Source: Cliona cf. orientalis (lineage: Eukaryota; Porifera; Demospongiae; Clionaida; Clionaidae). Taken from it: DNA of 64,000 nucleotides. The notes under the pieces were generated by a model that had not been told where the DNA came from, searched no databases, and saw only the letters and a program-made list of their open reading frames with translations. The stretch is taken from contig OZ005705.1 of NCBI GenBank assembly GCA_963930775.1, positions 4,340,001 through 4,404,000 on the forward strand. The letters run 5' to 3'. A program made the position numbers and the translations under genes. Of the stretch, positions 27,015-48,755 are shown in pieces; within the stretch, counting starts at the first letter, position 1; each line of letters starts with the position of its first letter.

Positions 27015-30000
27015 TTAAGATGCCAAAATCCTATCAGCAAACTTGTGCCTTATCAAAAAGTTTGATACTGTCTCTGCAACCTGCAGTACAATAAAGGTGT
27101 CCCTTATATCTACAGAATGATCCAAGTGAGATAGAGTGGATCACTCCCATGTATGCACATGGGACAAAATTCATAAGAAGGGACAGTCACAGTGGATTGA
27201 ATTTGGTTGGCCAATGTCTGTGTACTGTGTGCAGAACAGCATACCTTGTTAGGGGCATCTTCATGTACTGTATGGCCACATCCAGAAAACACTTGCATCT
27301 GAAATTTTCCTATAATATACATACAATTGGATATAGATAATCCCTATACATTCAACAGTTTAGTAATTAATAGTCTCCAGTATATTATAATTAGGTTATA
27401 TAGGTAGCTAATACACACAATACTAGTGCTGCAGGGAATAAAACGCACAAATGCATTATTCTATACAGCACTAGTGGGGTGTATTGACTGGTTTGTATCC
27501 CCACTGTCTACAAGTGCAGTGTCTAAGTCCGACACGTAGATCAAAACTACAGCCAGGGCAACATCTGAATATTGCCCTGTGGCTAGGGCAATATCATGAT
27601 ATTGCTCTGTGGTACAGCTGACTACTATTGGTACCTCATAGGTATACAATTATATATATTTTGAAACACAGCAAGTCACAGCTTATAGAGAAATGATGTA
27701 TGAGATCAAAGCTTAATGTCATCTTTGGCTACATTTTGAGGTGGCCAGAGTTGCTGGGTGAAGTTCAGTGTACGTATGCAATTATTTATTACATCCCGAG
27801 CCCTAATCAACAACAAAAAAAACGGCCAACCTATGAGCAAGAATAAATAATAAGGAGGGGAAGAGAGTGTCGAATGCGCTATATACCCCGCATAATGTTT
27901 TCAGCGAGTAACATGACTTGTAGCCGTGCGTACGTGACTAGCCCAAGGGGCTGAACACTTGATGTTTCTTAGAACTGAGAAGAATAGGCGTTTTTCATGA
28001 GTTTTATGCTAGATTCTTCATGAACGCTCATTTTATATTTTGATCTGCTCGTGCTTTCAGTCAAAATCGTGCTTGCATTAGCGTGCACTCGAGGCCATGC
28101 GGCATTGCCCACAATGTACCATTTGAATCGAATACTCTCATTGGTCAATTTTTGAATTCCTGGCACGTGACTTTCCGAAAACAACTTGTATAGCACGTTC
28201 GATACTCTCTTCCCCTCCTTATTATTTACTCTTGCTATGAGGTAATTATGATGAAACCTATGATAAAATTATGATGAAACTGCTGTGAAAACTAATGTTT
28301 AGTGTGCATGAAAGATTGTTTAAACTCAGAATTCAAACCTAGCGTAAAAGAGATTGCGGACTATCGATGAGGTATGGTGATTCTCTCAGTTCACTTTCTT
28401 TGGTGAGCTTGTTTGTACTCTGGGGGGATTCCCCTATTCTATCTATAGCACCTGACAGATCGAGGTCATGTCCAGGTCAACCGGCTCAAGCCGTGCGCCC
28501 CAATAGTATGCAATATGGAGCATGCGCTGTTTATTGATGTGTCTGAGGTGTGATACTTTTCATGAAGGACGAGGAATGTCGTAAGTTATTCATTATATTC
28601 CCAGTAGCAATTTACTTTTCTGTGGTTATGAAGTAATTATGCAGTAATCTATGGTGAAACCTATGGTGTAATATGAGGTAATCAATGAGATACTAAGAAA
28701 AATATAGGACCTCCATAGAGCCTTTCTGAGACTTGAAAATCAGTAAGTACATGTATGTAGAGTATCTAACACACATATCCAGCGAATACACTATAAGCTG
28801 CGCGCTACTTTTCTGACAAGTATGGCTTCTTGCTCAGGTGCATTAAGGACTGGGACCGTGCGCGCCATGCGCAATGCGCTTAATTAGCTATTCATATGCA
28901 AATTAATCACGTGGACCTGATAACGCTGTTGTGCTACCCTCGCTAACCGAGTTATTTGTTGATAGAAAATGCCTAATAAAGGTTCGATCAACTTACAAAA
29001 CACTGTAGAGCCGTTCGCCTTCCTGAGTAAAGGTTTGCCAGGTGTACTATAGCACGATGCACAAGTTGAATTGTCATGTGACCTATGGACACGCCCACAA
29101 TCATAGCCATACAGCCATGCAGTAGAGTCTAGGCAGCTCGAGGCGGTAGGGAAAACTTGCCAGAGACAGTGGCAAACGAAGGTTAATAGTTAATTTGGAT
29201 AACAAAGATGAGATGTTGAAATGGCAAAGCGAATTGGTTACTTATCCTTCGAGTTATTTCAAGAAGATTGTTGTCTCAGCAATCGTGAGTGGACTTTTTT
29301 TATTGATTATTTCTTACTTATTAGTTCAGGCAGCCTGGCCGTTTCAGAATTAGTTAATACAATTGTAACAATCGTGTTAAGAGTAAAAACGTTGTTATCC
29401 AAGTAGTTTTTCTCTACCGCCTTTCTCGATTTCTGCTCAATTAGTGGGTGTGTTGCTGAAGCCATAACTGTACGGTTAATTGGTGGGCGTGGCTTGAGGT
29501 TGGTTTGCAGTTAGAGGAGTCCCTGATCTAACTTATGGTGAAGGTTTGATGTCAGCCACACATACTTTTGGGGAGATATGACAGCTCAAACATAACACAA
29601 AAATGTCCTGCAAAGTGGCTGTCCCAGTCCTTAATGCACCTGAGTGGCTTATGTAATCTCTATAGCCATAGCTAGGCTGCGCTATATAGCATACCATCCA
29701 CGACCCAATCGATCTGAATTTTGGAAGCTGTACTGCACTGTCAAGTTTATCTCTGTTGAGATTTATCACTTTTCAAGGTCGACAGTTCGTCTCAGATGCC
29801 ATCAGGTCTGTGATTGGGGCATCGAATGTGCTCATTGTGTTGACGACCTTTTATCACATGCACCGTTATTATCATGCGGCTACTGGGGGGAATATGGTAC
29901 AGTGTTCATACTATAATTATTATTATACTGTAGATCGCGAAACTTTCACCGTTAAAAAATTTTTGTCAACCTTTTCTGACAAAAATTAAACACGTGAAAT

Positions 30001-33000
30001 ATTTGTGTAATGTATGTTGACCTATACCTATTTTGGTCGCTAAAGTCTGGCAAAATTTAGACTACACGAAAAATTTACATACGAAATATTTTACTCGCGA
30101 AAGTATCCCGATTTACAGTATACAAGACAGTACAGTATGGGCTATCAATGCTGCTGACCTTGCATTTGACCAATGGTGAGGTTTTTGTCCAGTCTATCTA
30201 CTCCCGCTAGGATAAGCAATTTTGTCGCAGGAACAGACATGAAGAGTTCAGACAATCCTAGAAACCAACCACGCCAAAATTTTTCTGTCTTCATCAGATC
30301 AATTCTCCAGGTATATGTCAATGACTCAGCCGAGGACTAGATGTGTATGCAAGTATTATATTATAATATTTGTGAAGCTAAAATTAACATGCAATGATTA
30401 TTTCACTTTGCAAATGGGATATCTAGCTCTCCAGCTTCTGTACCAAGCCTAAGTTATAATCCGACACACACCAACCCCTAGAGGTTTAATAACCAGCTCA
30501 ATGACATATTTTTGTGCTACACAGCTACCTGCACCGTTTGGCAACAGCTAGCTATCAGCTCACATACAATGTCATGTAAATCAGCTCCACCCTCTCATAA
30601 TTATTACGTCCAGAGTCCCAATCAACAAACCGATTCGGCCGATCGATGAGGTAATTATGATGAAATGATGATGAAACCTATGATGAAATTGGGGTGAAGA
30701 CTGCTTCAAAATGTTTAGCTCGCATGACAGGGTATTGGGACCCAGAATTCGAACTTAGCATAGAGGAGATCATGGACTATCGATGATATGTGGTGATTCT
30801 CTCAGTTCACTTTCTTTAGCGAGCGAGCTCTCTGGGGGGATTTCCCTGGCCCTATTCAGTCGAGCACATGGCAGGTGGAGGTCACGTCCAGGTCAACCGG
30901 CTCAAGCCGCACGCCCCATTATACGCGTATACGAAGCATGCCAGTTTGTCAATGTGTCCTACGGTAGTGTGGTGTAATACTTTCATGAGGGACTCTGGAT
31001 GTAGTCTAAGTTTTTCATTATGTCCCGAGTCCCAATTAGAATAAAACTATTCGGCCGACCGATGAGGTAATTATGATTAATGATGATTAATGATGACGAA
31101 ATTGCTGTGAAACTGTTTCAAAATGTTTAGCACGCATGAAAGGTTGTTGGGACCCAAAATTCGAACCTAGTGTAGAAGACATTGTGGACTATCGATGAGA
31201 TATGGCAATTTTCTCAGTTCGCTTTGTTTGGCGAGTTCGCACTCGGGGGGATTTCCCTGTTCAGTCTAGCACATGGAGGTCACGTCCAGGTCGACCGGCT
31301 CAAGCTGCGCGCCCCAATATACGCGTATATGGAGCATGCGCAGTTTGTCAATGTGTCCTAGTTCGAATTATGGCGGCGTACAGTAGCGCAGTGCAATATT
31401 TTTCATGAGGGACTCGGGATGTAGTCTAAGTTATTCAGTATATCCCCAGTAGCAATTTACTTTTCTGTGGTTATGAGGTAATTGTGATGTAACCTATGAT
31501 GAAATTATGACGAAATTATGATGCAACCTATGAGGTAATTATGAGAAAATCCAGGGCCTCGCTGGAGCCTTTCTGGGACTTGAAGTCAGTAAATATGTAG
31601 AGTATCTTGCGCGTGAATCCAGCGAATACATTACAAGCAGAGCACTACTTTCTCTGAAAAGTACTACTGGTTGAACTTTACGCGTTTTCTTGGTTTACGT
31701 AATGCCATGGATAAATAAAGTTTGCCTTGCGCTATATATAGCATGCATCATGTGAAGAGGCTGGCCCTAGTGAGACTGCAGTGCGACCAACCTGAAGTTC
31801 GGGAGGTAAACTGCGCTGTCGAGTTTGTCTCTGTAATTGGAGTATCGAAACTTGTCGCTATCGAGGTTGAGAGTCAATCTTAGACGCCATCTCCATGATT
31901 TCTGGTGCATGCCAGCATCGATGCGTACACATTCTTCTATTGACGACCATTTACCACATGCACCATTACACTATGCAGCTACTGGGGATATGGTCAAGTG
32001 TTCATTCATGTACAAGATACATGCCACCATGCAAGTGCCAAAAATCAAGAATGAGGGTCATACATGTATATTGCTAATATTTTGCCATACCATACATGAG
32101 GAAACTTTGTCAAGGGTTTTAAATTAAACAATTCGGTGAATTGGTTAAAGATCACCAAATCACATTGGTCCAATTACCATGTTTACCTATAGCATTCAAT
32201 TTAAATTTCAACTGAGAACTGTTTTGTAGTACCATACAATATGTCATAATTTTCGCTGGATAAAAATTTCACCAAGCCTTGCTATATACCTTTGTATTTT
32301 GGTAAAATGAATTTTCGTAAAGGTCACAAAATCTATGTAATCAATAACACGTGACAAAAAAATTCTCCTGGGAAAATTTCCATGTACCATATTATAGCAG
32401 AATTTTCAAGAGAAAAAAGTTTCGCGGATCAGTAAAGTGAGCATGCTAAATCAATAGCATAGGTGGGTGGGGCACGCCCAAATTTCAGGTTGCTCTCAAA
32501 CTGCGAAATTTGTCGAAGTTTTCTCCATCAAAAGTTTCCCACTATATGGTATAATATACTATAGACTTGCACTAGCTGATAACAATACAATCTGAAACAT
32601 TTCTGCAGAAATAACATGTCATCACGACAATGATCATAGAAGCAGATTGCAGTCACCCACCTTATCATCTTTCTGTTCTGTTTCAGTCTTTGTATCTATG
32701 GCAATAGATGTGCATTAAACGTATATTATTATAGTACATATGGCCAGTGCACCAACTGGGGTGGGTCTATAATTGTATTGTCCCACTAAAACAGTGATGG
32801 AATATAACAGCTACAAGTCATGAGTATTAAAATGATATGGAAGAATCCACCCCCTCCCCACATTCACAAATGGCCTCCCCCTGAAAATGAAATTAAACGC
32901 TTAACAAAACACAATAATATAATTGTATCTGTTACACCATAGATATTCAGATAATATCATGACTTAGCCTTGTATCCTAGGTAACAGCCATGATATAACT

Positions 33001-36000
33001 CCCATATACCCCAGCCCTCAGGCATTATAACTCCCTATCCCTGACAATAGTCCAATAATACAGTTGTACTGGCATACCAAGTTTGTGTTATAGCTACTAG
33101 CTTTTCACTAGCTATAGCCAGTAGCTCCCACACATAATACAATCACTAGGAGGGTTCCAGCTTGATACACTAACTATTGTGCAGATTGTCATTATGATAG
33201 AATCTAGCTGCCTACTACTCCAACTCAAATACGAAAAAGTAAACAGTCTGCTGATTACACTGACCAATCATGGTCAAGATATTAAACAGATAAGCTATGT
33301 TTGCCCAGGATACACTGTTCATATACCTACCACCTTCACTCTTGGGCTACACCCTCGAGCTCAGGGTGGTATATGAACAGTATATCCTGGGCAACCATAG
33401 TTTATCTATTACCTATATACATATCAGCACATATGCATGCTGGAATCCGGGGAAGAGGAGGGAGGACTCAGAAAACACTAGGGGACAGCATTTAATAAAG
33501 TTAACAATGATTAAAGCCAAGATTGACTTACAGAGTAATAATTATTATTAAAGATTTGCAAGCTACGCTTAGGCATTGCCTAAATAAAATCAACATTCAA
33601 GCCACATGTGCATTCTATTGCATATGCATGTCAGGAACGTTGCCAAAAACTAGAAACAATTACTGTTAGAGGAGCAAATGTTTAGAACAAATACCAATAT
33701 AGTCAGTTTTCACAAGATATTTCATCAACTACATAACCTGCTCTCCTTCACAGAGGATGCTGCAAACCAGGCTTGTTAAATCTCGGCAGCAAAAATTTCT
33801 AATTTGTATATACATGATGCTGGATGGACGAACGAGTGAACTAGTGACCATAATACAGCATTCTCCCAAAGTAAAATTTCAACATATGACAAGTGGGCCT
33901 ATTTTGGGTGGCGCCTCTGACCACAATAAAGCTAATGGACTATTCCCATTCCCACATTGAAGGAAATTCTGTACTGAAGGCTTGTTGGGCCGACATGGCT
34001 AGCGAGAACACTGTAATAATTATTAAGTAGCTAGCTCTTTGCTGCTAATACCGCACATCGCGAATATTTCATTATTAAAATACTTTCGGACAGCCTGGCT
34101 TGTGCGAAAACTAACACGCAAAAATACATACACAATATTAATGATAATGTGGTACAGGGTCATTTGTCCAAAAATTATTTAACACGAAAATAATTATTGC
34201 ACAAAATATTTTAGATACAAAATATTCACGATTTACAGTATTCCTGGCTATAAATTATCATACCAGAAATAGTTTCTTCAAGGATAGGTTGCTGCGTAAT
34301 GTTGTGCTGGACAATAGAAGTAGATTTGCTGCTTGATCCTAAAGATGTACTTGCAGAGCTATTGAAAATATGTTGGGTTTTTCCAAACTCTGATACACAC
34401 TCTTTATAGCCTCGTCCCCAGGCTCTCCCCCTCCTCTTTATTTTATACGTGCGATTTTATTTACGCGAAATTAAATTATTGTGCACAGAGAAGGGACCGG
34501 GAGGAAAGAGCCTGGGAGGCTTTGATCACGTGCGGACACTGATGACGCGTTCAGTGTCCATTGTGTCCACGTATGAGAGTCCAAAAGAACGAGAAAGAAG
34601 CCCGGATCAGCGTGCTAGTAGGCTTTTTGGAATGCTCTACAGATGGCTCGATCGATGGACAAGACTGCCAGCCAATTTTTTGACGCCTCGCGCTCTTGAA
34701 TCTCATACAGTGCCAGTGAGTTGGCTACCATGATCCAATGATGATCGTTCTCTGAGATTCAAGAGCGCGAGGCGTGAAAAAGTTGGCTGGCAGTCTTGTC
34801 CATCGATCGAGCCATCAGTAGAGCACTCCAAAAAGCCTACTAGCACGCTGATCCGGGGTTCTTTCTCGTTCTTTTGGACTCTCATACGTGGACACAATGG
34901 ACACTGAACGCGTCATCAGTGTCCGCACGTGATCAAAGCCTCCCAGGCTCTCCCCCTCCCTTCTCTGTGCACAATAATTTAATTTCTCGTAAATAAAATC
35001 ACGCGTATAAAATAAAGAGGAGGGGGAGAGCCTGGGGACGAGGCTACACTCTTTACTGTTACAGTATTTCACCTATCAATAATGCATTGGCACTCTTGTT
35101 TATACCCTCAAATTATCCAACTATAAACTTTCAGAGAACCTCTTAATCCTTACTTCATGTACAAAGGGGTAATAGGGGAATTTTCCTACACTTGACATCT
35201 TACTCCACCCCACTTCAAATTCTACAATCTAGTAATTATCATAAGGAGAGTCCAAAGACCATATACATGCAATATAACTAAATCATCAAGGGGTTGAACC
35301 TTCACTCACAGGTAGCGATTTTGATATACTGTTGCTGGATGGGATCATTTATAGGCACTTTTTGCACAATTGACACTATTCAAGTTGAAGACAGTCAGGC
35401 TGGTTCAGTCTCACTGAAATTATTGAGTTAACATGTATCACCAAGGGCTAAGCCCTTGGTATCACTACATAATGTATACATGTACATGTACATGTACATG
35501 TACACACACTCATATATACACGTATATTATATATTATTAAGCAAAGTGATTTTCTCATATTTAGTGATAACTGGGGCTCGCTTTGGCTTGTTCCAATATA
35601 TTTTCTACCACTTTAGAAAGATTCTAAAAAAAGCTCTAGTGGCTCATGAAAGCAGGTAGCACGCACACCCATCTAACAATGTAAGTGGCTCATGGTGCAG
35701 GCAGCATGCACACACCATAATATTATGCATGTGCCAGACAGGTTTGGTGCATGCTTGGTTTCCCATGAGACAATCACCAACTACCAGCATGATCATAGAT
35801 ATCATAGATCATCTTACCATTGTGTTAGTTGTCCTGGCATTGACACTCTTGCTGATTCAGGATTTTTTAATTGTCCACTACGAATACTACACAATTGAAC
35901 AATAAGATGGAATACTTGAATAATGATACAGACTATATTATGTAACAAGAGAGGAACCTGTACCTCCATTCAATTGCATGTTCTAGGGAGTTGAATGTAC

Positions 36001-39000
36001 TTGGCCTTCCTCTTAGAAAACTCTGCATTGATGCAAGCGACTCCACTGCAGTACCTGAGAGAAATCTGCTTACAATAGCCATACTGAAAAATACACACAC
36101 GTACACAAATGCTATAAAATTTCAGGCTTAGGCCAAATTATATCTTATTCAACAAAATACAAGGAGAATGAAATACCGTATTTTCTCGTTAATAGGCATA
36201 TTTCGCTTATAAGCACATATTCGCTGTTAAGTGCATGTTATTTTGCTTTCCTATTCACTCGCTATTAGGTGCATTTGACCCTTGACCTCAATATCTGCAT
36301 GCTTCCTTGCTAGCCCAGGGTTCCAGCCTTTTCGAGTTAGTCGAAATTACAATGGCTACAGTTGATTCTCAGGGTTTTTAAAGCAGTGCTAGGTCGGAGT
36401 GTAGTAAACATGCAGCATGAATAATTGTGCAATCGATCGAGCAACTGGCCACACCCCTTAAATATGCCCACTGACACGTATGTGTACTTGGATGTAGGTA
36501 TTTTTGTTAGGCGCATCTCGCTGTTAGGCACACCTCACTATTAAGCACAGGTTTTCTTTCTGTGGAGATATAAATGCATGCACTTAATAGCAGGAAAATA
36601 CGGTAGGGTAAGTAGGATCATTTCACGTACGTCCTACATGGAGAGTTAAAATTTTCCTGGGGGAACATACCACCAGACCCCGTAGTATAAGCAAGTTAAT
36701 GAGCATTACGTTATTCTAAAAAACATTACTACCATCCTCGCCCCCCTCCCTTTAATTCTGCAATTATCGTGTTTGCCCCCCACGACGAAAATTCTAAATG
36801 AAACCCTGAATTTTGATACCAGCAAAAAATAGAGTCTGTTGAATAGATTGGCATGGCTTAAACCTGAAACACTGATAAACCTAAGAGTTTGGTAGCATGC
36901 CATCATATCAGAAATAAAGTACCCACACTATGTGCGCACATGCTAAGCCTACCTTCCACCACATCAATAATTATCAATCCAACCAATGTTGGGATAATCT
37001 GCTCTGCAGCAACTCGAACAGCTATTGCTCCTCCCATGCTACAAATAATTAATGAGCATGGATCAGAAATCAGCTTACTGTACTTTTGCTTACCTGTGGC
37101 CCATAATTACCATAGGAGGTACTTCATCAGGAAATAGAGATCCCACGAGTTCACCAACATCACTACAATGTATATACAAAATTATAATATTTGACAATGA
37201 AGATACAGCTATACAGGATTCTCGTACTTCACCAAGGTTTTGGCAGACAGGTCATCATCATCCACAGTCTTAGAACAACCTGAACTAATAACAATAAGTC
37301 AACTGTTCAGAGATATGATTCAGCTGATTGCCTACCATGTCCCCGGATATCCACTGCAACAATCTGACAATTCACCAATTTTGTGACTTCCACCTACGTA
37401 TATAGGGATAGTAGTATCATAATAATTATACCACTTGGTCCAAACAGTTGACTTACTGTAAATAGTGCCCAGGACAAAGCAGAGTGTCCCCCACCATGAA
37501 GAAGCAGCAAAACAGGTCCAGAGCTACCTCGCAAATAAACATGGAAGCAGTTACATGGAGAGTTAAGTATGTACACACGCTCTTCAAGAGAAAAATAAGT
37601 AACACTCGCTATTGCAAAATTGAAGTTTGAAACACACATCACAGAAGGAAGGGTATCAAATCTCTTTTATAACATGGGGGCAAGTCTAAGTTGACATTAA
37701 GTTTTATATCATACGGACATTGTATTATATACAACAGTGAATAGCTACACTATGAAAGGATATGTTGTTTCCAGGAGTAGTCACATCCTCACTCTTTTCA
37801 AAGAAGTTATTCCATGGCAAAGGTGAATAATTTCTCCGCCTCTTTTTATGAACTCCACCAGTACTGTGTAATGGAATAAATATTATGTTACAGTGGACTC
37901 TCTATTAACGGACACTCCCAATAACGGACCTCTACCAAATAACGGACACTGCTATATGTACCAACCGATATCTCCATATGTCTAATGCAGTAGCAGCACC
38001 TGAATAGCGGACAACCTCCGAATTCCGGATAACGGACACAGCAGCTTGCACAAAGTAATACAGTACTATACAAAAAATGTTCTGACTAACGGACGGCGGT
38101 GGGTGTGGCTAACCCCACCCACGACCTTCTTACATGCAGTTCATGGCATTATTAAAATAATAAGACGGCAATACATATAGACACTAAAAAACACTAGTAC
38201 TTTGTCTAGCTATAGTAATGACAACAGCCACTGCTTTACTTGCTCAAATGGCAAATAGCTAGCCATTCGTCCACCATGACGCAATTGACACTCGTCTAGT
38301 AGATCACTTCCTTGAAACAGACTGAATAGTGCAATACAATGTCATGAAAACACTTGAGTATGTCATGAATTTCTTTATAATAATGAACTATTGGCTATAA
38401 AATTAATATTAGATGAAGTGGGGGTGACTAAAGTAAAACACCCCAATAAAGGACATACCCCGAATAAAGGACAGAAGCCTATGTACCAAGGTGTCCGTTA
38501 TTCGGAGAGTCCACTGTATATCCTTTGTTGCGTTTACTTTCACAAGAGCTCTCTCCAGCTATTGCTTTTCAAAGGACAGTATTGCAATATGCAGGTAATT
38601 AATTACACACACTCTCAGTAAGCAAATTGGTTTTCTTTGCTTCCAATGTACATGTATACACTATACCACATACATAATATGCATAGGAACTGTAAGCATC
38701 TACTTATTAACTAACGACAGCACTACTGTAAGTCCAAAACTGTAACGAGCACAGTAAATTTTAATACCTCATCACACAGAGTCGTCCACACTGAAACTTC
38801 TTAGCTAAACTGCCGGTGGGTTCAAAACATGTACCATAGTAATGTTACTGCCAGTGTAATAGCTAGTTTGCAACAGTGGTGAATGTATATTTGAGAGCGA
38901 TTGCTGCTGTTGAAATTTTGGCATTCAAATATGTCCTGTGCCGGGTAAGTGCCCATGGAAATTTATATAGTTGTGTGAGGGCCGCTACATTGACCCCTTG

Positions 39001-42000: not shown

Positions 42001-44602
42001 AGTCCCAGGAAGAGTAGTAATTAACTCTAGTAAAAACATTACAATAAGGACTCTCTGGGTATAGCCAAATAACACAAGTATACGTAATAATATTAGTGAA
42101 AACAGCCAAGATAAGCATGCTTAAGGCAGCAGTCAGTATTGCAAGTGATTCTCAGAGAGAGAGAAAGTAGCATGCTAATTACCCCATGCGCGCATGCATA
42201 GCAAGGGATAAAGCAATCAGTTTTGTCTGTCTATCGTCATATACAGATCTCGAGATTTAGGCATCTAAGCGACTCATAAGCACAACCAATCCATCGAAAA
42301 ACTTGCTCCATTATGCTTCAAATTATTTGGTAAGGCCCACAAGCATCGCAAACCTGCGTTTCCAGGCCTTTATTTAGAAGCTTTCCCAAGGGAGGCACAG
42401 CAAGTTATTATGAGATCAAGGGGGGCAAGACTATTTTCTGTGCACACGATCTCTAGTAGGGTCTGGGGGCATGCTCCCCCAGGAAATTTTTTTCATTTTG
42501 GACTCCCTGAGATTGCTTCTCAGGCACTACATTTTGAATACTAATATCATGATTATTATTCACATTAGGTGACTTGATGCAAGTGATAATACTAAGGGGG
42601 GCTCGCCCCCCCCCTCCCCAAATGAAGCCCTGGTTTCTTATTGGCCATGCCTATCAACCGCACCCCCTTGTGCTTTCTGCTCATGCGCACAACTTAGCAG
42701 AGTACGTAGGTAAAGGTCGTCAACAAGTGCAAGTAAACCACCGTAACTCTCATCTCTGTGCAGATAATAATTAGCACTATAGGATGCAGATGCAATGCGC
42801 GGAGAACGTGCTCTAGAGAGCTCTAGTTAATAATTGTCGATCTGATTTATGTTTTTTTCCAGCCCAATCAATCACGTGTGGCCCAAGTAGTATTGTCAAA
42901 ACATTAATATATTTAGCAGCTGGCCCATTTTATGGGGTGTCCTTGAATTACAAAATTAATACATATTGCTTAGCAAGTGACACAGTATTGAGGTAGTCTC
43001 GCGCGCCAGCCCCTCCTATGCAAAAAGCGAGAAAGGGTTTGGTAAATAACGTACCATCCGCTTGTCCCCGTGGAATGCACATGACATCATAGAACGTGAC
43101 ATCATTAACCGCAAACATCACGACCTGATAAGAACGAAGTGATAACTTCTAGCTGTTTCTCCAATGACAAATAGCCTAACTCAGCGCTTGCTGTCTTCAC
43201 TGCGTCCTCGAGCTTCTCCATCGTTCCTGCCAAGATAGAGCGTGACTAGTCTCGCGGGCCAGTGACCGCGAACTTTATTGTATACGCGTACACAGCTACT
43301 TCGCGCATTGCGCATGTCCCGGATGGTCATGTGACTAGATACTGCCATTTCATTGGTAGTTCATATAGCCTACACGGGGACAAGCGGATGGTACGTTATT
43401 TACCAGACCCTTTCTTGCTTTTTGCGTAGGAGGGGCTGGCACGCGAGACTAGTATTGAGGCAGTGGTGGTCTGGTGAAATGCAGGAGGTATGAAATCATC
43501 AATATTCCACGTGACTACCAATCTGCGTCATCAGGGGCGTGTCCCAATACAGTTGCTATGCTTAGAAGGCTAAAAACAGCGGGATCCTCGAGGGTTCACT
43601 AGCTTAACCGTTGTAGTTTCGATCACTTGTCCCATTCATATTGTTTGGAACAGGAATCCTGGTGGTTCACCCTTGAAATCACCATCAAAGTTTACTATGT
43701 AAAGTCTAAGGGGATAAAAGTGACAACCCAGCAGTTTGTCTTGGGTACGTGATACTTTCATACCTCCTATGGGTGAAATGATCATCTTTTTTATGCCAGA
43801 CTAGTAGGTAGGTCCTCAAGTATCCCTAAATCCCAATCCTTTTTCTCCTTTGAAAAGAGCATGCTATATAGGCACATGGCATATAAACATATTAGATGTG
43901 TCATGCTAAATCAGCAATTAATAAGACTGTGTCTACAGTCCCGGCACTGGTACTGGAAATTTTGCGCTTCGAGTACCGGCAACTAGCCCGCCAAAAACTT
44001 AGAAATTTTTCGAAATTGAGAGAAAGAAAAAAAATTCATAGATCAAGTGGCATTCGAACCCATAACCACAGTATGCCAGCCCAAGCCCTAGCCTGCTCTG
44101 CCAACCCAGCTCACCGCTGCTGGATGTTGTTTTTTGCACACCTTACCACTATAATACTGACCCTTGTCACCAACCGTACCCGAAACCCAAACCCCTCGTA
44201 ACCAACCGATTATCGGAACCCAAACCCCCACTACTAGCCTCACTAGCCATCTTGCGCTCAGTAATATAATGCCAGACTAGTACATTGCCGATACTCCAAG
44301 AGCTGAATCTTGGGTACCGGTGCCGGGACTCTAGACACAGCGAATTAGTAAAGGCATACCTATATTTAATATATAGCAGTTACGTATAATACTTTCTTGG
44401 GGATATTCAATATCCTTATTAGGCAGTAGAATACTCAAGACCGAGGTGTGCCTTAATTAGAGTATTAAAAACAGAGTGCCCACTTTTAATTTTGGGGGGA
44501 AAAGTGAGTAGCATCTAAAGCTTAATAACTTTACCTACGAAAATCATCAGTTGGTAATGGCGGTAGTCCAGCCTTCAAAACCTCCTTCCTCAACGAGGAC
44601 AT
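27015..44602 (-). CDS. PPME1: Protein phosphatase methylesterase 1
   Basis: Fourteen exons in phase: 44535-44602, 37785-37863, 37457-37579, 37336-37393, 37228-37279, 37094-37162, 36953-37038, 35964-36054, 35818-35886, exon 10 split as 35047-35055 and 34264-34397, 32661-32695, 30159-30336, 27245-27309, 27015-27080. Without the insert the protein is 393 residues, close to the vertebrate length. It removes the C-terminal methyl ester from the PP2A catalytic subunit. Visible marks: LLLLHGGGHSALSW (oxyanion region), GHSMGG with the nucleophile Ser at about 150, IIIDVVEG with the acid Asp at about 175, YTWRIDL, LAGVDRLDKNLTIGQMQGKFQ, and CGHTVHEDAP with the catalytic His at about 363. Exon 10 encodes the low-complexity Ser-rich segment and is interrupted by the 34407-35046 element. 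Several introns are kilobases long and full of TEs. Confidence 0.93.
27785..28620. repeat. ATGATGAAA-rich block, copy A (split by a MITE)
   Basis: Starts near ACATCCCGAGCCCTAATCAA, then (after the MITE) GGTAATTATGATGAAACC, CTATCGATGAGGTATGG, TCTCAGTTCACTTTCTTTG and CCAGGTCAACCGGCTCAAGC. Direct copies follow at 30604-31015 and 31016-31440. 28620-29220 contains diverged pieces of the repeat at 31440-31700 plus unrecognised sequence. Confidence 0.75.
27838..28234. mobile_element. CAAGAG-type MITE with 7-bp duplication, copy 2
   Basis: 397 bp, ends CAAGAATAAATAATAAGGAG and (reverse complement of right end) CAAGAGTAAATAATAAGGAG, flanked by CTATGAG at 27831-27837 and 28235-28241. It interrupts copy A of the block also present at 30604 and 31016, which give uninterrupted versions. 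In PPME1 intron 12. Confidence 0.88.
29640..29925. repeat. Block shared with 31730-32010
   Basis: Shares GCGCTATATAGCAT, a CTGTCAAGTTTATCTCTGT-like stretch, GTTGACGACC and TATCACATGCACC with 31730-32010, in the same order. Together with the ATGATGAAA blocks this suggests that a segment of about 2-4 kb was duplicated within PPME1 intron 12 and later diverged. Open frames here are not supported as genes. Confidence 0.6.
29926..30120. mobile_element. TACTGTAGATCGCGAA-type MITE
   Basis: Ends TACTGTAGATCGCGAAA and (inverted) TACTGTAAATCGGGATAC, about 195 bp, rich in AAAATTT. Relatives at 34049-34240 and 54326-54516. It ends 39 bp downstream of PPME1 exon 12 in gene orientation. Confidence 0.75.
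30604..31015. repeat. ATGATGAAA-rich block, copy B
   Basis: Second direct copy, from CCAGAGTCCCAATCAACAAA to the GAGGGACTCTGGATGTAGTC end, in tandem with copy C. PPME1 intron 11. Confidence 0.78.
31016..31440. repeat. ATGATGAAA-rich block, copy C
   Basis: Third direct copy, from TTATGTCCCGAGTCCCAATT to GAGGGACTCGGGATGTAGTC, with an extra short internal ATGATTA duplication. 31441-31730 continues with repeat debris shared with 28620-28800. Confidence 0.78.
31730..32010. repeat. Block shared with 29640-29925
   Basis: See the partner copy; here the block runs from TTGCGCTATATATAGCATGC to GGGGATATGGTCAAG. The following 370 bases show only AAATTTT-type MITE debris. Confidence 0.6.
32385..32551. 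mobile_element. MITE of the TACCGTATAGC family, complete
   Basis: 167 bp with ends TACCATATTATAGCAGAATT and (inverted) TACCATATAGTGGGAAACTT; inside AAAAGTTTCGCGGATC. It is the intact relative of the MITE split by the LINE at 11595-14648. It lies 110 bp downstream (in gene orientation) of the short PPME1 exon 11. Confidence 0.72.
33281..33412. repeat. Perfect-arm palindrome, copy 1
   Basis: TTTGCCCAGGATACACTGTT with GGTATATGAACAG on one side, their reverse complement on the other, and a loop containing GGGCTACACCCTCGAGCTC. A relative is at 50226-50335. 32700-33280 and 33413-34048 show no gene; both are AT-rich PPME1 intron sequence. Confidence 0.72.
34049..34240. mobile_element. TACYGTAAATCGCGAA-type MITE, second copy
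   Basis: Ends TACCGCACATCGCGAATATT and (inverted) TACTGTAAATCGTGAATATT; contains ACTTTCGGACAGCCTGGCTT, which appears in reverse in the 54326-54516 copy. It ends 24 bp from PPME1 exon 10. Confidence 0.72.
34407..35046. mobile_element. MULE-like 640-bp palindrome inside PPME1 exon 10
   Basis: Near-perfect inverted arms of about 310 bp beginning TAGCCTCGTCCCCAGGCTCT, with a short central loop near 34720-34745. Flanked by an exact 9-bp duplication CACTCTTTA (34398-34406 and 35047-35055). Open frames of 85-94 codons in it are palindrome by-products. The duplicated 9 bases are coding bases of PPME1 exon 10, the only place where the phases of exons 9 and 11 can be connected. Confidence 0.9.
37891..38516. 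mobile_element. pogo/Tigger-like MITE, TA duplication
   Basis: Ends CAGTGGACTCTCTATTAACG and (inver­ted) CAGTGGACTCTCCGAATAAC, flanked by TA. Several further CGGACA motifs inside each arm. Ends of this kind with TA target sites resemble pogo/Tigger elements of the Tc1/mariner superfamily. It sits 27 bp upstream of PPME1 exon 2. Confidence 0.8.
38517..42177. other. PPME1 intron 1, low-repeat part
   Basis: 3.7 kb of AT-rich sequence. 38930-39055 is a decayed relative of the 56470 MITE (GCCGGGTAAGTGCCCATGG and GCATATGCCCGGGACAC). Otherwise no exon, RNA gene or clear transposon was found; the ORFs are short and lack coding character. The content here is less TE-rich than the rest of the gene and could hold regulatory sequence. 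Confidence 0.45.
42178..42830 (-). mobile_element. GCGCGGGGTA-type MITE, inverted copy with nested insert
   Basis: Reverse orientation relative to 15472: begins TTACCCCATGCGCGCATGC and ends GTGCTCTAGAGAGCTCTAG. A second element, with AGGCCTTTATTTAG and AAATGAAGCCCTGG as inverted ends (about 42360-42634) and runs of G and C inside, is nested in it. Confidence 0.65.
42994..43451. mobile_element. MULE-like foldback MITE, TAGTCTCGCGCGCC ends
   Basis: 458 bp with inverted arms of about 80 bp (TAGTCTCGCGCGCCAGCCCC, then GGTACGTTATTTAC), flanked by a perfect 9-bp duplication GTATTGAGG (42985-42993, 43452-43460). Related to 19782-20320. Confidence 0.88.
43927..44340 (-). mobile_element. TIR element with a second, different tRNA-like module
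   Basis: 414 bp with ends CTGTGTCTACAGTCCCGGCA and (inverted) CTGTGTCTAGAGTCCCGGCA. On the minus strand 44044-44123 reads GAGCTGGGTTGGCAGAGC (D-arm/A-box like) and, 40 bases on, GGGTTCGAATGCC (B-box like), the layout of a tRNA-derived module. The rest between 44124 and 44300 has CCAACCGTACCC-type repeats. It resembles the 3773-6276 elements only in design, not in sequence. Confidence 0.68.
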
Positions 44603-45172: not shown

Positions 45173-48100
45173 ATGTCCATGTCTCAACTGAGTCCACTGA
45201 ACCCCACGTCATTGAAAGCGCTTGGTCCAAGTGAGGAGCTAGTTGCTACCGTTCCGGACCTTCAATTCGGAGTGGTTGCAGACGGTGTCACTGAATTGAA
45301 CTATACATTTACAGATTCGAGAAAGCGAAATCGCAACGACAGTGGTTGTTCCCTCTCTGACTTTGAGATTAGTGGAGACGAAGACTTCTCCTTTATCGAT
45401 TTGAAGCGCCCTTGCAGTGCCATATCGTCTTCACCTTACGCTTTACCAATATCGTATCCTGCGAAAGAGTTCAATATTGAGCTTGATTCTGTATTCCAGT
45501 TTGGTCCTGGAACTGTAAGCACAGATCAACAACCCCCGGCAACAAATATACTTATCGGTAATCATTGCCAAAAGCTGAGTGGGTACTCTCAACAGCCGAA
45601 AACTGGGTGTCTGGATCGGGTCTTTACAGGGATGCAACCAGCCGAACTGCCAACAAACCCTTATAAGCACGATCTCATGCTCAACTGTGATCAAGACTGC
45701 AAGCTAGTCATTACTGAACATCCCGAAGAGGTAATAATATAATATGTTGAGACTATTATTTTACAAGACAGGCATGTAAAGCAGTACCCCCTGCTTGGGT
45801 GATATCATAGGTACAAATTTAATGCTGTGGCGGGAAGGGGGGGGGGGGGGTGCGGTGCACCGGTGATGAAAAGATCCTCAAATGAATGGCGTCACTAGTG
45901 GGCTCATTCTCATCATTCATGTACATGCACTATAGTGTGGACCATAAAACATAATATGAGCCCAAAAACAGCTCACTGTTGTTTATTTTGCAAATAATGT
46001 GAAAGCTCGGGGTAGAACTGTTGGAGCCAACATTCTGTTTTTCACTATCAATAATTATCTTGTTTCCACCTCCAGGACCACTCCTTTCTATGGTATTGAT
46101 AATACCAGTGCTCTAGAAGGGAGTGGTTTCTCAAGAGTAAAGCATGCTGATGAAGTAGCAGTTTTTTAATATTATGTATGTTATAATGGAGCCTTGGGAC
46201 AATAAAATTTAATATTAGTCTTGTGAACAGTCTCAAACTTTATGCTACAATATTCCTATTGCAGTATTATCGTGCCCGCTATGGTAGTGAAGGAGTTCGT
46301 GCACCACTGAAGGGAAGAACAGAAAATTATCCTGCAGTACAGGTAACTATATGCATGTAAATCCCCATTCATCAGATTCTGTGGGCGGATATTTGTTATA
46401 CAATGTGCAGATCTAGATATGAATCTCTGGCATGGCATTCCTTTGATTAGCTTGTGTGCTCTATTTTTAGCACAAATTACATTCATGTTGCTCACTAAGG
46501 TGCATGAATTTGTTTGGGTATGTACCCTTGGTGACTTAATATTGCCCTGCTTCCCTTAATGTGATCTGACTGTATTGGGTATTGGAACTTGAGGAGGATG
46601 ATGAATATCATTTGCATTAGATCATTGGTCCAAACTGCAAACATGTTGGCATTGTGACTGTGAAGCTGGTTCATGAAGATGGTAGTGATCATGCTTCCTG
46701 TTCCTTGGATAGCAGCGAGGAAAGAAAGAATGCACTCTGTAAGAAGATTGGTCCTTTTAACAGGATGACTGCCGAGTATGTTTATAATTATTACAAATAC
46801 TTCCCAGAAGCTTATTGAATATATTATTCATCAGATTTGAAGACCTGCGTATTCGCCGAGAGAAAAGAAAGGAAGGGAGAAAATTGGCACCAGCAGCTGA
46901 TAAGGCAGCTACTAAGGAAGGTCATAGTGACAAAGTGGCATGCCTGCTTTTCATCGCAACACTAGAAACAGAACAGGGTCCTATTGTGCTGAAGGCACAG
47001 TCTAAACCAATCTCTCTGAGTAAGTTTATTATGCAATAAGACTGCATTTAATTTTACCATCCCTATAATATTATCCTGTAGCTACTGCTCCGGAACCTGC
47101 TGAACTAGACTGGCTTGAGCCTTCACGAGGACACTTTGGTGGTCAAGAGGTGGTTGTCATCAAGGGATCAAAAATGACTTCCCGTAAGTGCGTTGTTATT
47201 AACCAATTATGAGGTAGAAACCATACCCTAGTCAGTTGAGGCTCGAAATCAGTTATCCAAGGATAGATGATCGACCCTGGCCTTAGTGTAATTGAATTCT
47301 GAGTTCCATATCTATGTTGATCTATGTTTTATCAGCTGCCTTATACTTTCTTTGCGTTTTGTTTATAGCCAAAGTTTTATTTCGTGTTCAACTGCCTGAT
47401 GGGCAGGTTCGTGACTTGCATGGGTCTGTTGATAAGGAACGATCGCACCAGAATGTGTTGCTTGTGAGGACACCATCTCTCAGCCAGTACCACTTTGGAA
47501 ATCACCCGGTTCAAGCTCAAGTTGTTGTAATCACTGGACGCAACCAAATGCCTAGCAACCCACTGCTCTTTGACTTCATCCCTAATCGTAAGTTTACTAA
47601 AAGCCAAATGAGTCCAGATATAGAAAATACAAATCTCTTAATTTGTCTGATTATCCATAAAATTATGCTTATGAAACAACATCTTTCTACTACCTCTCCA
47701 GACATCTGCATTTCTTGCAGCCAGGAGATTCCACCTTCGCAGTTCACTCCAGTTCCAAGAGCCCCATCAGCTTTAGCAGCAGGTCCTCTGTTCACCATCC
47801 ACCAAACCCCAGGCTCACCTCCAACTACTCCTAGTGTTCATTCCTCTGTATCAGACACACACTGCAGCCAGTCCCTGAAGCCTGATCGCTCTTCGCCAGA
47901 CACCATCTGTCATTCAGTTGCATACTCACCTTCAAGGTCACCAGCAAACAGTAGTGTTGCAGTCCTTTCCACCAGCTCCCTACCTATGCAAACCATGACT
48001 CCTCTCCAGTCAACCACAGACACATCCAAGCCAAATGATGATATCATGCAGATCATGCATCAGCTCATCAGCCAGGACTACTCCACCAGCTCAAGCGACC

Positions 48101-48637
48101 TTGGTGCAAGCCCAAAGCAATTTGTGATGATGAATGCTGTTGCTGAAAATCAGTCAGCTAATTCCCCCTATCTTGGTGATATTGCAGTGAGCTCCCCATC
48201 ATCGGATAGGCCACAGTACAGTCCAATCACACCCAGCCAAAGTCCTTCAGGTAGTTAATACGTTATTAAATGCATGTAGGATTATGAGTACTGCAGGAAG
48301 ATTATTTATCATAAATAATTCGTCACTGAGTATTATTATCCCTCATTCTGTAGGACCTTCATATCCTGATCATATGTTGTATTCTCTGAAGCAAAAGAAG
48401 TTGATCACAGAATCAGACTACATTGTAAGGCGGATAAATTTACTTCCTACATATAAACGAGCTATTGTGATATTATATCACTGTATATTACTCCAGCTTT
48501 TTGTCAGCCTCTATCAAGATCATAACCCTACATTTCTTCAAGCCATGAGGGCAGCTCATGGTAACGAAGAGGTGCTGCTTCAAATGTTGGCTTCTATAAA
48601 GCCTGACCATAGTGTCTATCAAACATCACAACAGTGA
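45173..48637 (+). CDS. NFAT-like Rel-homology transcription factor
   Basis: Nine exons in phase: 45173-45730, 46265-46342, 46621-46775, 46835-47019, 47082-47183, 47369-47587, 47702-48250, 48354-48424, 48497-48637; 685 residues. An acidic, Ser-rich N part has a basic RKRNRND motif (about 44-50). The Rel-homology DNA-binding half starts near residue 178 with the recognition loop YYRARYGSEG...LKGRTENYP, closer to NFAT5 (RARYLTEG) than to NF-kB (RFRYxCEG). The IPT/TIG half follows: GGQEVVVIKG, KVLFRVQLPDG, VDKERSHQNVLLVRTPS and QAQVVVITGR. No ankyrin repeats. The C part is Ser/Pro/Thr-rich (about 430-615) and ends in a helical-looking segment, YSLKQKKLITESDY to LQMLASIKPDH. Acts in the nucleus on kB/NFAT-type sites. 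No clear PxIxIT calcineurin site was identified. Confidence 0.85.
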
Positions 48638-48755
48638 AATTCTTTTTCACACGTGCAAGTTTGCTTCTATGAAACAATGCTGTGTGTATCAAATTCACGG
48701 ATGTTGTGCATCTCTGTCTGTTGATTTCTCTGTAGATCGGCAGGTTTATTAACCT

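Follow-up and report, generated by a model that had tools for sequence, protein, structure and literature searches.

Does a transposable element interrupt the coding sequence of PPME1, the protein phosphatase methylesterase gene, in the sponge Cliona cf. orientalis, or is it removed with an intron? The element lies in a 64,000-nt stretch of DNA (the window, C17:4340001-4404000, OZ005705.1) of an assembly of which we searched 216,785,154 bases in 149 contigs. According to the initial annotation, a MULE-like palindrome had landed inside exon 10, so that the 9-mers on both of its sides were coding and the allele was either broken or rescued by exonisation. The answer depends on where exon 10 begins, at position 35055 in front of the element (as read on the gene strand) or at position 34358 behind it.

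The gene was identified as PPME1. Among PDB chains, the best match of its translated exons is human PME-1 (7soy, E 1.2e-79), the protein matches the profile Abhydrolase_6 (E 7e-25), and it contains both a GHSMGG-like and a CGHxVHED-like motif. The His of CGHTVHED is catalytic in human PME-1. All 14 exons were placed by hand on the minus strand (Table 1). With exon 10 taken from 35055 and the insert omitted, the uncertain junction of exons 2 and 3 allows variants of 391, 393 or 405 residues, and we exactly reproduced the model proposed before, in which a 143-nt exon 10 completes a set of 14 exons that together encode 393 residues in phase. The other 13 exons are open and in phase, which argues against a gene broken elsewhere than in exon 10. 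A transcript without exon 10, or without both exons 10 and 11, would run into an early stop, and splicing exon 10 straight to exon 12 is out of phase; the 35-nt exon 11 is therefore needed.

Table 1. Features of the PPME1 locus (positions of the window; a slash marks the intron-exon boundary)
Feature	Position	Strand	Details
Exon 1	44535..44602	-	
Exon 2	37785..37863	-	3′ end uncertain: 37793, 37785 or 37749
Exon 3	37457..37579	-	5′ end 37579 or 37581
Exon 4	37336..37393	-	
Exon 5	37228..37279	-	
Exon 6	37094..37162	-	
Exon 7	36953..37038	-	MGGAIAV...DVVEG
Exon 8	35964..36054	-	
Exon 9	35818..35886	-	ends CAA TG; conserved Cys completed by first base of exon 10
CAG, acceptor of the initial annotation	35056..35058	-	context tgaaatactgtaacag/T; exon start 35055
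Target-site duplication, outer copy relative to gene strand	35047..35055		CACTCTTTA
Palindromic (foldback) non-autonomous DNA transposon	34407..35046		640 bp; termini TAGCCTCGTCCCCAGGCTCTCC
Target-site duplication, inner copy relative to gene strand	34398..34406		CACTCTTTA
TAG, acceptor of the preferred model	34359..34361	-	in phase, open; context acccaacatattttcaatag/CTC, TTTTCAATAG/C, tattttcaatag/C; exon start 34358
Exon 10, preferred model	34264..34358	-	95 nt; donor GTATGA from 34263
Exon 11	32661..32695	-	35 nt; required for in-phase join of exons 10 and 12
Exon 12	30159..30336	-	YTWRIDL...GQMQ
Exon 13	27245..27309	-	carries CGHTVHED
Exon 14 and stop codon	27015..27080	-	

A search of the genome with a 250-residue part of the PPME1 protein gave eight matches, seven of which are the exons described here, while the eighth is noise (E 0.8). 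No second place for a 1,145-bp flank, and neither a second PPME1 locus nor an empty-site haplotig, was found in the assembly searched, which shows one haplotype of this locus. The expectation that PPME1 is single copy thus agrees with these searches, including the check for a second intact locus. Head to head with PPME1 lies another gene (window 45284-48640, plus strand) with weak Rel-domain (NFAT-like) matches (E 0.002 and 0.10), the first coding exon of which had no match in a PDB search.

The 640-bp palindrome flanked by identical 9-mers was found again at the positions given in Table 1. On the plus strand, TAGCCTCGTCCCCAGGCTCTCC opens the element and its reverse complement closes it. The arms (214 nt at 94% and 97 nt at 95% complementarity, partly overlapping) provide long terminal inverted repeats of more than 100 bp, as looked for in a MULE. 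An RNA fold of the 658 nt comprising the element and both duplication copies has a predicted energy of –584.7 kcal/mol, compared with a mean of –197.8 (sd 5.9) for 20 shuffles. The 9-mer CACTCTTTA is exact at both ends and occurs just 948 + 956 times across the 216.8-Mb genome, so that a chance pair placed exactly at both element ends is not credible. A second repeat of ∼141 bp (window 34100-34241) is located in intron 10 and ends ∼20 bp from the exon 10 donor; it has at least 39 other places in the genome at 85-91% identity (40 of 958 candidates scored). Exon 10 therefore has repeats close by on both sides.

The element is a member of a multi-copy foldback/MITE family with 9-bp duplications. 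Comparison with the genome returned at least 109 match rows (40 of 123 candidates scored, each palindrome matching twice), and when no more than one mismatch was allowed, the terminal 22-mer was counted 237 + 230 times, against zero occurrences of a reversed control. We cut out 18 long loci and compared 14 of them end to end, with L019, L021, L024 and L026 excluded from the duplication count. The 9-bp duplication is exact in nine of the 14, has one mismatch in one, and is absent from four (L012, L013, L015 and L022), the right ends of L013 and L022 being damaged. Twenty further regions yielded 15 assessable end pairs, nine with exact duplications, five with one mismatch and one with five; five of these regions contain a single end only, and the outer pair of L069, with seven mismatches, was counted as no pair. 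End pairs in the family span 110 bp to 3.5 kb. Closest to the PPME1 element is the sister copy L010, with differences at 12 of 635 positions; the other eight aligned copies are 4.2-6.1% divergent. Eight substitutions are private to the PPME1 copy and one to L010. Judged from these distances, the insertion at PPME1 appears to be fairly young.

L065 (301-3816, C8:5489512-5493027) has family termini, a 9-bp duplication with one mismatch and internal repeated stretches, and its right end contains a stretch of the palindromic element. We considered this 3.5-kb copy as an autonomous partner and rejected it, since it contains repeated stretches and inspection by eye of its frames of at least 80 residues revealed nothing transposase-like. 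The 12.4-kb interval between the C1 termini L067 and L068 was likewise dismissed as a single simple element, as its first 10 kb has retrotransposon-like frames (by eye). Two 144-bp copies, L070 and L071 (C1:27.66 Mb and C1:28.47 Mb), carry the duplications GTGCAGGTG and CACCTGCAC, which are reverse complements of each other; this suggests an inverted segmental duplication.

No transposase frame was recognised in the PPME1 element. The MULE transposase domain has 58 matches in the genome, and at one of 30 such loci inspected, over ∼1.5 kb on either side of each, we found a similar terminus. This element, C14:7180951-7185645, has identical inverted 23-bp ends (TAGCCTCGAACCCAGGCTCACTT) and the 9-bp duplication TTCGTTCAG on both sides, and a reading frame within it matches PF10551 (E 7.3e-11). 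Compared by eye, 18 of 22 terminal bases agree between it and the PPME1 element and four differ. The closely similar termini of this transposase-encoding MULE support the MULE label for the PPME1 element, and together with the 9-bp duplication and the long inverted repeats they uphold the description as MULE-like.

To compare the two candidate starts of exon 10, we scored their acceptors against references taken entirely from this genome, either 21 sites (11 from PPME1 and 10 from the VCP gene) or 27, with six added from the Rel-like gene. The PPME1 references omit exon 10 and the ambiguous exon 3; the VCP acceptors (L086) were read by eye within exon matches. The weight matrix is small and its sites are hand-picked. 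Two of the Rel-like acceptors adjoin tblastn matches (E 0.10 and 0.002) and four were placed by reading frame only, two ambiguous ones having been dropped. An AG abutting the outer duplication copy is indeed present, as annotated before (CAG at 35058-35056, minus strand). The stretch upstream of it is purine-rich, and its score of –1.65 bits falls below all 21 left-one-out reference scores (minimum –1.25). The 34358 acceptor reaches 4.19 bits, above nine of the 21 references. With 27 references, the number scoring at or below the 35055 acceptor is 0, 2, 2 and 1 over four window widths, compared with 21, 22, 18 and 8 for the 34358 acceptor, and the latter outscores the former in 99.7% of 2,000 reference resamplings, by a median of 6.46 bits. 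The previous AG is 27 nt away from 34358, a distance equalled or undercut in 11 of 27 references, and 15 nt away from 35055, as little or less in three of 27.

The interval from 35790 to 34271 holds 105 AGs, nine of which score higher than the 34358 site; score alone therefore does not select it, and the selecting is done by phase and open frame. With the element present, six acceptors are in phase and open, and 34358 is the top-scoring of these. The claim that the nearest downstream acceptors give the wrong phase was correct in so far as none of the AGs lying between the element and 34358 combines the right phase with an open frame, but it missed the acceptor at 34360-34359, which has both properties and a normal score. 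The resulting exon would start 40 bases past the inner duplication copy. All 27 reference acceptors are YAG. The acceptor of PPME1 exon 3 (window 37579-37583, minus strand), AAG or GAG after a strong pyrimidine stretch, is unlike them; its better variant scores lower than the 35055 site in the two narrower windows (1.27 versus 1.44 and 0.01 versus 2.23) and above it in the two wider ones.

The protein is in weak agreement with a start at 34358. This start gives QLTQ-C-SASTS... and retains the Cys of human KQCEG; the start at 35055 likewise retains the conserved Cys and the phase. From this Cys to YTWRI, the loop would measure 50 residues from 34358 and 66 from 35055, compared with 46 in human PME-1. 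The alignment score to human PME-1, calculated with a human sequence whose loop agrees with the PDB alignment, is 111 from 34358 versus 95 from 35055, a gain that is unspecific, as comparable scores follow from other 16-residue deletions around the start of the loop (34358 ranks third of 51). The human loop is described as disordered and as carrying a B56 docking motif, and how long the linker is reportedly makes a difference to B56 docking (PMC9398451).

Taken together, these observations lead us to consider it likely that the element resides in intron 9 of PPME1, that exon 10 starts at 34358 and that the protein is intact, with the choice of acceptor inferred from a small number of reference sites. 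In this model, a non-autonomous foldback element with MULE-like ends would have landed fairly recently in intron 9, close to its 3′ end, and duplicated 9 bp; the 48 nt that separate it from exon 10, made up of 39 nt and the 9-bp duplication copy, would be original sequence. Use of the acceptor at 34360-34359, downstream of the element, would remove the element together with intron 9 and yield a full-length, in-frame methylesterase of ∼375-389 residues. Because the element most likely lies just in front of the exon and not inside it, PPME1 is probably not broken. The assignment of the 9-mers to coding sequence is thus probably wrong, given an atypical acceptor at 35055 and a typical in-phase one at 34358, and the choice between a broken allele and exonisation is not the best reading, as the 34358 acceptor either puts the element in intron 9 or bypasses it.

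The most serious competitor, which we nevertheless regard as unlikely, is that exon 10 does begin at 35055, that the element sits 9 nt inside it and that this allele is broken, in which case the specimen would probably carry the insertion in the heterozygous state, next to a functional second allele. In support of this, the start at 35055 gives an in-phase exon and a complete model, and retention of the element would shift the frame and end translation after 311 residues, short of the exon 13 His motif. The similarity to L010 points to a fairly recent insertion, and disruption of PME-1 in mice is described as perinatally lethal (PMC2438471). For Cliona cf. orientalis odCliOrie1.1, an alternate-haplotype assembly, GCA_963930685.1, and one RNA-seq run, ERR13669944, from the same specimen are reported (PMC12639293); the k-mer completeness of the primary assembly (60.5%) is lower than that of the alternate haplotype (91.4%), with 99.6% for both combined (PMC12639293, Table 2). 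This pattern is unusual and would fit either strong heterozygosity or additional sequence in the alternate assembly. The separate alternate haplotype and the difference between primary and combined completeness make a heterozygous insertion plausible, but a second haplotype of the PPME1 locus was not found in the assembly searched, and the 35055 acceptor ranks at the bottom of the reference set, with a normal in-phase acceptor just downstream. Still less probable is a combination of both models, in which 35055 was the ancestral start and splicing had to move to the downstream acceptor once the element was inserted. If the ancestral exon did begin there, the 34358 acceptor would be the likeliest rescue, at a cost of 16 residues of the disordered loop.

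Two further ways of coping with an element inside the exon seem very improbable to us. In the exonisation proposed by the initial annotation, an AG within the last 35 bases of the element would serve as acceptor and add about ten residues to the loop. Two such sites that restore the frame do exist (exon starts 34433 and 34430), both in phase and open, but both are GAG after a purine- or A-rich stretch, score –2.1 to –4.5 bits and lie within the predicted hairpin of –585 kcal/mol; the uniform YAG of the references also speaks against them, though PPME1 exon 3 departs from it. Equally improbable is introner-like splicing, which would excise the element from an exon beginning at 35055; the donor would lie within or next to the outer duplication copy, and a GAG close to the other end of the element would serve as acceptor. 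By eye, the donor AGT/GTAGCC and the acceptor GACGAG/GC would give an in-frame addition of 12 nt (four residues), and introner families that have duplications and inverted repeats are described from aquatic species, one of these families adding 12 nt (PMC9860276). This donor is weak, however, and the acceptor is again GAG, both as judged by eye, and those joins within the duplication that were inspected by eye lead to a stop or frameshift. Moreover, no coding sequence was recognised by eye, without a database, in the two longest frames across each insertion point of 13 other copies.

An element in intron 9 would be an ordinary insertion, probably harmless to the gene and of little significance. 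It also calls for caution, as a clean duplication that continues the phase of the exon next to it may be mistaken for coding sequence where a better in-phase acceptor follows a few dozen bases later. Should transcripts establish 35055 as the ancestral start, the locus would offer a natural example of a splice site shifted by a transposon, in a PP2A regulator that is single copy.

A literature query for PPME1 and transposons in Cliona orientalis showed nothing relevant among the papers listed and was too loose to claim absence. With introners, the PPME1 element shares that it is non-autonomous, has inverted repeats and a duplication, and is found in a gene of an aquatic organism (PMC9860276). 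Unlike them, it most likely lies within an existing intron, and we saw no sign of new-intron making. Animal MULEs are described with 8-10 bp duplications and long inverted repeats (PMC5225508, PMC3169594). Muta1 of Aedes aegypti and its derivatives combine 8-9 bp duplications, long inverted repeats and many non-autonomous derivatives (PMC5225508), as observed here, whereas the PPME1 element is palindromic almost end to end and lacks a recognised transposase frame. Tm1, a Mutator/Foldback system of root-knot nematodes, differs from the sponge family in its host, its terminal sequence and its composite repeats with internal motifs; the two agree in their foldback structure, mostly 9-bp duplications, and the occurrence of both MITE-like and transposase-encoding members (PMC3169594).
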